This document shows positions 30,401 to 33,400 of a stretch of DNA of 64,000 nt, piece after piece; the stretch's first letter is position 1; every line of letters begins with the position of its first letter. Source of the DNA: Chiridota heheva. Lineage: Eukaryota; Echinodermata; Holothuroidea; Apodida; Chiridotidae. The position numbers and the translations under genes are program-made. The stretch spans positions 298,501 to 362,500 of the forward strand of contig JAIGNY010001647.1 in NCBI GenBank assembly GCA_020152595.1, read 5' to 3'. The notes below the pieces were generated by a model. It did not search any database, was not told the DNA's origin, and saw only the letters and a program-made list of their open reading frames with translations.

Positions 30401-33400
30401 GAATTAGATTTTGTGAATACAGTAGTGCCATTCCGCAGTCGTCACATAATTCACGGACTGCTGAATGGTCCTAGTAGATCCCTGGGAGACCCCAGGGGTC
30501 TGCAGTCAAATGTGCCAAACGTGCCCCACGTGATAAGGAAAAATCTAAAATACACAGACTGTGGAATGGACCAGTACCGTTTCCAAAATTATGATTCTTT
30601 AAATGTTTTTTGTTGTAATTAAGAAACTTATAAAACTACATGTATTTTAAAGGAGTATAATTATAAATATTTCCAACTGTTAATAAATCTGCAGAACCAG
30701 CCCTAAAGTGGTTTGGTTTGGTTTAACGGCACAGTGACAGTCAGAATCAAATGTGCCAAAACGTGCCCCAAAAGTGGTGATGAGGAAAAATGCAATAATA
30801 CGCTGTGACAGGTCTTTGTGTTTCTGATATGAATGTCATACATACACAAATCGTCTTGAGCTTGAAATTGAAAAAAAAGATATATCCGATCAGAATTAGA
30901 TTTTGTGAATACAGTGTCATTTTCAAAAATAATACTTTAAATGTTCTTTGTTTTAATTAAGAAAGTTATAACTACATGTATTTTGAAGGAGTATAATTAT
31001 AAATACTTCCAACTTAATAAATCTGCAGAACCAGCCCCAAAGTGGGGATGATGTTAAGTCCAATAATACACTGTGACATGTCTTTGTGTATCCATGCTAA
31101 GCTAATTATAATGGGAATTTTTCTTGCTCTAATGAATACACCCTAATAAGCTCCACAGGGACCATAGAAATTTCAATTTAATAACATATGATGTACAGTA
31201 AAGAGACAACATTAGCTAAATTGCTTCAAAATCTGTTAACAATAAAATTTCAAAAGGCAATCAAACTTAGTTAAAATTTGCTATCTAATTTTACATTGTT
31301 TTTAAATTTCATTATATCAGGCATCAATAAATGGAAATTGCAATTTTGTAATGTACAGCTACAGTACAGTATTCAAGGTGACTTTGTTATTCTATTTTCT
31401 AAATCCTTTGCTTTGTAGATAGTTACATAATTCTTGGAAGTGCTCGAGCAAATCTTAGTGCTTTAGGAAAGAAACTGTTTAATTATGAATACATGCTCTA
31501 GCTGAGTCTTGTGAAGCTTTGATGGCATTGGTTTCTCCAACTATGGATGCTAGTGGGGTGGTGTACTGTGCATTCACGTATCAGGGATGACCTCCACATA
31601 AATATCCCCTTCATCGTTAGGATTGTCACAAATATGATATATATCATCCTCGGCATCCGTTATATCTGTATAATTATCACCTTCACTCTTATCAGCTACA
31701 TAGTAATACTCCGGGTCCAATCCATCTCCTTTACAATTCTCATATTTACTGTCATTTCTCTGAAAGTCTGTTTTATTCATGTTTATAATTTGTTCTTTAC
31801 TCCTGTTTTTCATTGGAACAACTGGTCGTGGTTTTTGTAGTCCTGTGTATGCTTTGTTGGAGTCTATTTCATGAGTGTTCAGATCAATGTATGAATCGCT
31901 GATTTCGTTACTTTTAGGTCGTTTCCCCTTCTTTGGTTCATTCTGCTTTTGCGTTTCATTTACCGTTTTGATTTGAGGTTTAGTTTTGATTTTCGGTGGA
32001 ACAACAGGTTGTGGATTTTGTAGCCCTGCGTAAGCTTTATTGGAGTCCATGTCATGAGTATTTAGAGCTGCGTACGAATTGGGATCCTCGTTACTTTTAG
32101 TTTGGCTTGACTTTGGCGGGATCATGCTTGCAAGAATATTATTCAGTTTGGGATTTGAATTGTATAAATTATTCTTTTTGTGATTGTTCAATCCACCTTT
32201 TGCTCCTTTCGTTTCCATGGGAATTTCATAAATATTCTCTCTTTCTTGTCTTCTACCGTGGACTTGTGAATGAGTTATATTTTCATCAACTGTTCTTGTC
32301 TTTTGTTTACCTATAATCAAATTTCTCCTTCTCAAAAACACAAATATTGAAAATCCAAAGCACAATGTAAGAATCAGAAATGCTGCCATCCCCCCAATAA
32401 AACCACTGCCCCCACGATGGGGAGCATTTGTGTTAATCACAATTAGTGGTGAACCAGTTGTTGGGTTTTCAGTCGTAAATGTCATTATTGTGGTAGGCTC
32501 TGTTCCATCATCATTACAATAATAATTTACTTTGAGATATTTATGAATATCTCTACAAACTTCACCAAAATGAGAGCTGGACACCTGGATAGTACATTTC
32601 CTCCTTCCCTCACATTTTTCACGCGTCACATCTGTTGCAATCTCCGATTCACAAATTCCATTCTCAAGGAATGAATCCACCGTAGAACATCCGTTGAAAA
32701 GTTCGCTATCTCCGATGTTGTTTCCAAACCTGGCGCTCAATATGACTATTTTGCCAATGTCACATGATATATGTAGGGGGTCATCGCCTTCACATGCAAA
32801 CACGACAGGTGTACAGGTGTAATTTACCTTTAAGTACTTTACAACACCAGAACAAGGATCACCAAATATACTGTTTGATGCATAAACGGAACAAGATCTT
32901 TTACCATTGCATCTTCTACTCACTTTTTGGAAAGAGGTTTCAGCAACGCATTCTCCCCTAGGATAAACACCATTGGTACACTTCTGAGAAAAGTCATCTG
33001 AACGATCAAAACCATACGCTGCATGAAGAGTGGTGATAACTGTGTCTGAGGGACAGTTTATGCGAAGTTGTCTGCGTTCACATGCATATTCCTGGTAATG
33101 CTCGTACAACGGTTCTGCTGAAACCTCAAATGAGACCAAAATATGTATAACAGTTAACACAAAGATAAAAGATTCCATTTTTGTGAGGTTCCAGGTTTAT
33201 TTAAAACTCCAGTGTGAAATGTTGCACAAATGCTGTCGTACTGCTGACTACATTACAACATTTCTGTACCTGTCATAGAAGAAAACTCAAAAAGTTCTTT
33301 TTTAATAGAAATTGCATCATCCATTAAACAGTTGAAATGCTTCCACTTTTTTTTTTTCATACACAAAATATCATATCTTCATTTTAATGTCCAATTAAGT

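Follow-up and report, generated by a model that had tools for sequence, protein, structure and literature searches.

A SUEL-lectin receptor gene with a duplicated ITAM-like tail module in the holothuroid Chiridota heheva

Introduction

Receptors that join a ligand-binding head to a tail with an immunoreceptor tyrosine-based activation motif (ITAM) have been described in several invertebrates. Here, we compare them with gene A, which encodes SUEL/rhamnose-binding lectin (RBL) domains, a membrane span and a tail with two paired YxxL motifs. Gene A lies in a 64,000-nucleotide stretch of Chiridota heheva DNA, hereafter the window (assembly GCA_020152595.1, contig JAIGNY010001647.1, positions 298,501 to 362,500 of the forward strand). 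A nearby copy (B) and a distant paralogue elsewhere in the genome (C) are also considered.

The papers cited here are represented by excerpts, to which the statements drawn from them refer. Two oyster proteins, CgCLec-TM1 and CgCLec-HTM, are transmembrane lectins of a marine invertebrate, with tails that bind Syk via a hemITAM or nonclassical ITAM (review PMC13027682), and oyster CgIgIT2 carries a "classic" ITAM (review PMC11999971). In Drosophila Draper-I, Src42A phosphorylates the ITAM tyrosine, which recruits Shark, a Syk-type kinase (PMC4503800). Moreover, Botryllus FcoR and Hydractinia Alr are invertebrate receptors with ITAM, hemITAM or immunoreceptor tyrosine-based inhibition motif (ITIM) tails (PMC12065747). 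The closest relative in ectodomain plan is EVA-1/EVA1C (C21orf63), which has a single span and two extracellular RBL/SUEL domains (PMC2430599). An earlier note on this DNA had drawn the same parallel, and the plan of A agrees with it. Rhamnose-binding lectins and immunoreceptor tyrosine-based motifs are named separately and unjoined in the excerpts of PMC13027682 and PMC9316650. In the open-licence literature, where absence is weak evidence, no description of a SUEL/RBL head on an ITAM-type tail was found; the statement of the earlier note that it knew of no described SUEL-ITAM receptor is consistent with this, but it overlooked the oyster, tunicate, cnidarian and fly ITAM-type receptors.

We propose that A may be a self-contained activating glycan receptor that would use a Src-family kinase, its ITAM-like modules and a Syk-type kinase, and assign this reading a probability of roughly 0.58.

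Results

Gene A encodes a single-pass protein with two SUEL domains

Gene A, on the minus strand, occupies one uninterrupted exon-like block of 1,602 intact bp. Its frame is free of stops between 33196 and the stop codon at 31574, and its first ATG stands at 33178; an in-frame stop and the start context ACAAAAATGG lie upstream of it, and an ATTAAA lies 90 bp beyond the stop. The gene and the features of its head and span are as follows.

31574..33178 (stop codon included), minus strand: gene A, SUEL-ITAM-like receptor, single frame of 534 residues
33116..33178, minus strand: predicted signal peptide, residues 1-21, a hydrophobic leader read from the sequence
32813..33082, minus strand: SUEL domain 1, residues 33-122, from Cys 1 to Cys 8 (Pfam, Cys pattern, structure-sequence matches, fold search)
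32516..32794, minus strand: SUEL domain 2, residues 129-221 (Pfam, Cys pattern)
32333..32401, minus strand: membrane span, residues 260-282, followed by RRR (sequence; helix 259-303 in a low-confidence model)

The Pfam scan matched SUEL/RBL (PF02140) to A in two stretches (E 2.4e-31; 108.4 bits vs. a cut-off of 31.4) and returned nothing else above cut-off, hence no C-type lectin domain. Each domain has eight cysteines, at residues 33, 42, 67, 77, 90, 96, 109 and 122 in SUEL1 and at 129, 139, 164, 176, 189, 195, 208 and 221 in SUEL2. A sequence search of solved structures matched A to the L-rhamnose-binding lectin 5h4s (sea urchin SUL-I; E 4e-41), to CSL3 (E 1.9e-26) and to latrophilins (from 2.6e-15). 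In addition, all 13 fold-search matches of the SUEL1 model at E ≤ 0.001 were SUEL/RBL chains, with template modeling (TM) scores of 0.56-0.65 and root mean square deviations of 5.6-7.3. That model, which covers domain 1 only and was built from four window rows, is modest, with a predicted local distance difference test (pLDDT) score of 63. A full-length AlphaFold2 model of A, with three rows only and a mean pLDDT of 30, was left unused. The membrane span is single and uncharged, so no adaptor contact is evident from it.

In latrophilin-1, rhamnose is contacted by Glu42 (beside the first Cys), Tyr63, Gly117 and Lys120, and the substitutions made in that study at Glu42 and at Lys120 cut binding dramatically or abolished it (PMC2430599). 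SUEL1 of A holds all four contacts (E34, Y55, G111 and K114), whereas SUEL2 holds two (E130 and K213), with F151 and D210 at the other two places. On this basis, A is predicted to bind sugar via its first domain.

The tail of A contains two copies of a paired YxxL module

The tail of A comprises 251 residues, 13 of them tyrosines, and carries the following motifs.

32228..32230, minus strand: Tyr317 (YEIP), in A's single copy of the unit repeated in B
32021..32074, minus strand: ITAM-like pair 1, YAAL(369)-x10-YAGL(383), residues 369-386
31991..32008, minus strand: PVVPPK after pair 1, residues 391-396
31838..31891, minus strand: ITAM-like pair 2, YIDL(430)-x10-YTGL(444), residues 430-447
31808..31825, minus strand: PVVPMK after pair 2, residues 452-457
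31733..31744, minus strand: YENC, pYxN type, residues 479-482
31697..31708, minus strand: YYYV in EYYYV, residues 491-494 (EYYNV in paralogue C)
31661..31672, minus strand: YTDI, residues 503-506
31589..31600, minus strand: YVEV, residues 527-530

The earlier note had listed two eight-Cys SUEL domains, one span, the two pairs 61 residues apart, a PxxPxK after each pair, and YEN, YYYV, YTDI and YVEV. Every one of these was recovered: the domains and span as described above, the pairs at 369/383 and 430/444 with the 61-residue spacing, the proline motifs at 391 and 452, and the remaining tyrosine motifs at 479, 491, 503 and 527. It did not mention YEIP (317), the further tail tyrosines YNSN (339) and YHIC (514), copy B, paralogue C or the Syk-type SH2 domains described below.

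The loose ITAM pattern YxxL/I-x6-12-YxxL/I occurs twice in the cytoplasmic tail of A. Among 100,000 shuffles of the tail, at least one such pair arose in 4.9% and at least two in 0.3%. The ITIM consensus, [SIVL]xYxx[IVL], fitted none of the 13 tyrosines. The two modules (codons 361-410 and 422-471) show 72% DNA identity over 150 bp, with dN of 0.28 and dS of 0.69, and all four Y/L anchors are present in both. Judging from this identity, the two modules are an internal duplication of one module. They are therefore not two independent events, and the question becomes whether one module is real. The two tandem ITAM-like modules of the earlier note thus hold at the loose 6-12 spacing, and the same pair recurs in C, but they are one duplicated motif.

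The tail of A was unmatched in Pfam and, at E ≤ 10, in the PDB. FAM176, which we take to be the EVA1 tail family, gave no Pfam match in A at E ≤ 1 and a match below cut-off in B (15.2 vs. 31.5 bits); to our knowledge, EVA1C has no known ITAM. Among public genome and metagenome proteins, none of 4,196 candidates matched whole A at E ≤ 0.001 and none of 205 candidates matched its tail at E ≤ 1, which says nothing on absence in animals. One stretch in viral contigs, matching a pattern, and 23 in bacterial or archaeal contigs were candidates, and none was confirmed.

A distant paralogue carries the same module

Genome searches covered the 1.10-Gb assembly containing the window. The SUEL profile gave 35 matches, of which four lie in the window, 25 in 20 stretches (about 9.9 kb each) that were read, and six outside these. 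One stretch, L009, contains gene C; it was the lectin domain, not the motif, that led to this gene, and the tail was read afterwards.

L009:5521-6651 (contig C2596): gene C, open frame of 377 residues with one SUEL domain (E 5.4e-16), a span and a tail

The tail of C contains SYMDLNFNGLGSNDEYTSLRTP, YQDL, EYYNV and YQNS. Its ITAM-like pair is YMDL-x10-YTSL, accompanied by an overlapping x11 pair; in 50,000 shuffles of this tail, an exact x10 pair arose in 0.2% and any x6-12 pair in 1.35%. When the two modules of A and that of C were aligned, 10 of the 41 first-row positions were invariant, including all four Y/L anchors, and the flanking residues were common to the three (SY..LN.....SN..Y..L..P). 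When the tails of A and C were compared, 1 of 5,000 shuffles scored at least as high as the true pair (P 0.0002). Furthermore, a whole-frame search of C against its own genome gave B and A as the best matches besides itself, and the match of A to C (E 4.8e-15) covers the SUEL domain and the span and reaches into the first ITAM-like pair. Homology of the A and C tails is concluded from the shuffle test and this joined alignment, not from tail-only searches. Since C carries the same pair at the same spacing, it is stronger evidence for the module than the shuffles of A. A, B and C are here treated as members of a single small subfamily. As far as these comparisons go, A is a well-formed receptor gene of a small family, with an ITAM-like module common to a distant paralogue.

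The proline motif is less widely distributed. PxxPxK stands by both pairs of A and is missing from the module of C, and in the A-C tail alignment only EYYxV aligns among the other A sites. The unit of ITAM and SH3 ligand proposed in the earlier note is therefore seen in A and not in C. Within this genome, the distant paralogue C retains the paired motif, and in B, the near copy, it lies out of frame.

Inspection of the sequence upstream of C gave no in-frame Met, and a splice-acceptor-like TTTCCAG precedes its SUEL domain. A signal-peptide-like stretch, MASAQFWKLLTIFFLIS, lies just upstream of that domain in a different frame (L009:5558-5608, plus strand) and may reflect a hidden exon, an error or decay.

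The 20 stretches were scanned for ITAM pairs in frames of at least 60 residues, with low-complexity frames and pairs with C, F, W or an extra Y removed; the unfiltered list consisted mostly of TA-repeat frames. Twelve rows were left (one site appearing twice, in overlapping stretches), two of them in the C tail, one elsewhere in L009 and the remainder in frames unlike receptor tails, with exons beyond the ~9.9-kb stretches outside the scan. The other SUEL genes were thus rejected as ITAM receptors within this range. More than one SUEL domain was present on contigs C1382, C1562, C297, C2628 and C2929. Of the 35 SUEL matches, 16 start between profile positions 26 and 35, as though the domain were interrupted there by an intron; in A, B and C, the SUEL domains are in one frame.

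Syk-type SH2 domains are present in the same genome

The SH2 profile gave 53 matches in the genome, some of them parts of one domain, and 21 of these were read as short stretches. The best match of an SH2 region on contig C2605 was SYK (E 1.3e-31 over two domains, the summing of SYK's two SH2 domains giving part of the lead), and its single-domain score was 65.6 bits to the SYK N-SH2 vs. 56.1 bits to the best ABL. About 18.4 kb downstream, on the same contig and strand, lies a partial SH2 whose best match was the SYK C-SH2 (E 7.5e-14; 36.3 bits vs. 24.1 bits to the best GRB2). By these matches, the genome very probably encodes the tandem SH2 of a Syk-family kinase of Syk or Shark type. Invertebrates possess both a Syk-like gene and SHARK, according to the excerpt of PMC10253181.

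Copy B retains the head, with the ITAM-like part out of frame

A second copy of the gene lies in the window, with the following features.

31014..34630, minus strand: duplicated segment with A
23995..27834, minus strand: duplicated segment with B
25252..26367, minus strand: gene B up to its stop, 371 residues, with both SUEL domains, the span and three YEN motifs
25192..25478, minus strand: 57-bp coding tandem repeat in B, 5.1 DNA copies
24542..25210, minus strand: B ITAM-like tail, in another frame and behind a further stop

The two segments are 94-95% identical in two aligned pieces. The pair is, by its layout, a segmental duplication, because both flanks are included and the longest A run in 30900-31573 is only 5; a retrocopy origin of the second copy was rejected. 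B retains the leader, both SUEL domains and the span, and its frame stops at 25254. Four 19-residue units of the repeat begin in frame, three with YEN, vs. one unit in A. The ITAM-like part of B has 94.6% protein identity to the tail of A. As assembled, B would be a shortened receptor that has YEN sites but lacks an ITAM, or else a copy in decay; an assembly error is possible. Inspection by eye gave no fitting GT..AG intron that would restore the tail frame. A Pfam match of B to Tir_receptor_C (20.5 bits, cut-off 25) was taken as compositional.

Between A and B, omega was 0.50 in the head and span and 0.48 in the tail. The aligned coding sequence has one 3-bp indel besides the repeat, vs. 14 gap openings in the flanks. 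This comparison provides weak evidence of constraint.

Other features of the window

Dispersed repeats surround the A and B segments, and the window also has several tandem arrays and open frames.

27770-28317 and 35730-36279; 30156-30423 and 30651-30915: dispersed repeats, forming an inverted pair (87%) and a direct pair (92%)
22139-22859: TA microsatellite of 721 bp, giving long spurious YIYI open frames
44634-45428 (period 19 bp), 17009-17275 (22), 47095-47479 (22), 41283-42319 (302) and 18729-19499 (155): tandem arrays
52498-57532, plus strand: three long open frames of 615, 419 and 708 residues, Ser/Gln-rich with coiled-coil-like stretches
8686-9153 and 62878-63690, plus strand: frames with a common signature, with a similar stretch in L001

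Scraps resembling the tail, at 27980-28057 and at 35964-36056, are part of a dispersed repeat containing stops and were rejected. The frames at 52498-57532 may resemble CEP295, but Pfam gave no match. The signature at 8686-9153 and 62878-63690 we take to be that of RNase H in non-LTR retrotransposons; a Pfam scan of the 62878-63690 frame, the only one of the two scanned, gave no match.

Discussion

From the observed architecture, the pair in C, the sugar-contact residues and the Syk-type SH2 domains, we infer a ligand, phosphorylation, Syk recruitment, an activating output and an immune or phagocytic role for A. The steps follow by analogy with Draper-Src42A-Shark (PMC4503800) and the oyster CgCLec receptors (PMC13027682), as far as the excerpts describe them. 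A would be a type I single-pass protein whose head, mainly SUEL1, binds terminal galactose- or rhamnose-like sugars. Multivalent glycans would cluster the head, and a Src-family kinase would then phosphorylate the paired tyrosines. The two ITAM-like modules could recruit the tandem SH2 of the Syk-type kinase of the same genome, while the PxxPxK motifs and the other tyrosines may bring in SH3- and SH2-containing partners. Such a receptor would act in immune or phagocytic cells. A self-contained receptor of this kind, with no adaptor, was the proposal of the earlier note; the architecture, the uncharged span, the SUEL1 contacts and the Syk-type SH2 domains agree with it, and its activating character stays conditional.

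Several observations weigh against this reading. Strict ITAM spacing is x6-8, and all three modules, two in A and one in C, have x10. Tail-only searches did not link the paralogues: the A tail found only A and B, and not C, in the genome at E ≤ 1, and nothing in the 20 loci read at E ≤ 0.01, and the C tail found only itself and one chance repeat, and not A, in the genome at E ≤ 10. The latter was a weak match on contig C3612 (E 3.9), an internal repeat without a receptor. The tail of C (L009:6097-6648, plus strand) also has one match to the ITIM consensus, VSYFSV, and its output, with the ITAM-like pair, is possibly mixed. As for the head, Phe57 of SUEL1 stands at the place of the buried, conserved Arg65 of latrophilin-1, and the SUEL domain of C has Gln instead of the Glu needed for sugar binding, so that C may be unable to bind sugar. 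The authors of the latrophilin-1 study question whether receptor RBL domains have rhamnose as their natural ligand (excerpt of PMC2430599). In B, the ITAM-like part has been lost from the frame while the SUEL domains, span and YEN motifs remain. The A-B omega of about 0.5 is marginally under neutral (silent excess, Fisher P 0.02; simulation P 0.057), and the coding sequence (3.75%) has diverged no less than the downstream flank (3.4%), the value for the upstream flank being 4.8%.

Alternatively, A might be a lectin for endocytosis or scavenging, whose YxxL/I motifs would be YxxPhi sorting signals of the AP-2 type, paired by coincidence. All five YxxL/I sites of A (YAAL, YAGL, YIDL, YTGL and YTDI) fit YxxPhi, but a single signal suffices for sorting, and AP-2 needs neither the x10 spacing with its SY..LN.....SN..Y..L..P flanks in three modules nor the YxN and EYYxV sites. 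We therefore consider this explanation unlikely.

A second alternative is that the tail serves as a general phosphotyrosine scaffold for adhesion or phagocytosis, engaging Grb2, Crk/Nck or PI3K type partners, and not as a Syk-recruiting ITAM. It is the YxxL pair, not the YxN sites, that the A and C tails conserve best, which argues against a scaffold in spite of the mixed contexts of the 13 tail tyrosines, the multiplication of YEN, a Grb2-type site, by the 57-bp repeat in B and the 53 SH2 matches of the genome, some being parts of one domain. The scaffold appears to us less probable still than the sorting signal.

That the locus is a recent duplicate pair, decaying or silent, with one copy broken and function gone, is very improbable: B ends at 25254 with its ITAM-like part out of frame, and A-B coding divergence resembles that of the flanks, but A is intact over its 1,602 bp, coding sequence has a single 3-bp indel besides the repeat vs. 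14 flank gap openings, omega is near 0.5 in both halves, and C has an open frame of 377 residues.

With A read as an activating glycan receptor, we speculated further, and with more doubt than conviction, that SUEL-lectin ITAM receptors form a separate class. The ITAM and SH3-ligand unit would be a duplicable module, and copy number within the tail might tune signalling strength and output, by 61-residue modules in A and by the 19-residue YEN units of a 57-bp coding minisatellite in B. The genes would then diverge into two- or one-lectin and activating or mixed forms.

If A signals as proposed, a new lectin fold would be added to the heads joined to ITAM-type tails in animals, and the gene would offer an adaptor-free, glycan-triggered receptor for testing Src-ITAM-Syk signalling outside vertebrates. 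It would also bear on the single or multiple origin of paired-YxxL tails. The coding minisatellite of B is a natural experiment on changing the number of docking sites.

Compared with known systems, A recalls CD3 epsilon in the proline-rich SH3 ligand beside its ITAM; unlike A, CD3 epsilon is a complex subunit with one ITAM and no known lectin head. Draper-I has an EGF-type head and is not known to have lectin domains or a tandem ITAM pair. CgCLec-TM1 and CgCLec-HTM, as the excerpts describe them, have C-type lectin heads with hemITAM or nonclassical motifs, whereas A has SUEL heads and two full YxxL pairs. CgIgIT2 differs from A in having five Ig domains in place of SUEL lectin domains, and Botryllus FcoR and Hydractinia Alr in their Ig-type heads and their role in allorecognition. 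In EVA-1, the N-terminal RBL domain has Asp for Glu and the C-terminal one is without both Glu and Lys (excerpt of PMC2430599), so that neither has the full set of contacts, in contrast to the four of four in SUEL1 of A. Thus, A is not a new category of receptor: it adds a SUEL head to the known invertebrate lectin and Ig receptors with ITAM-type tails.

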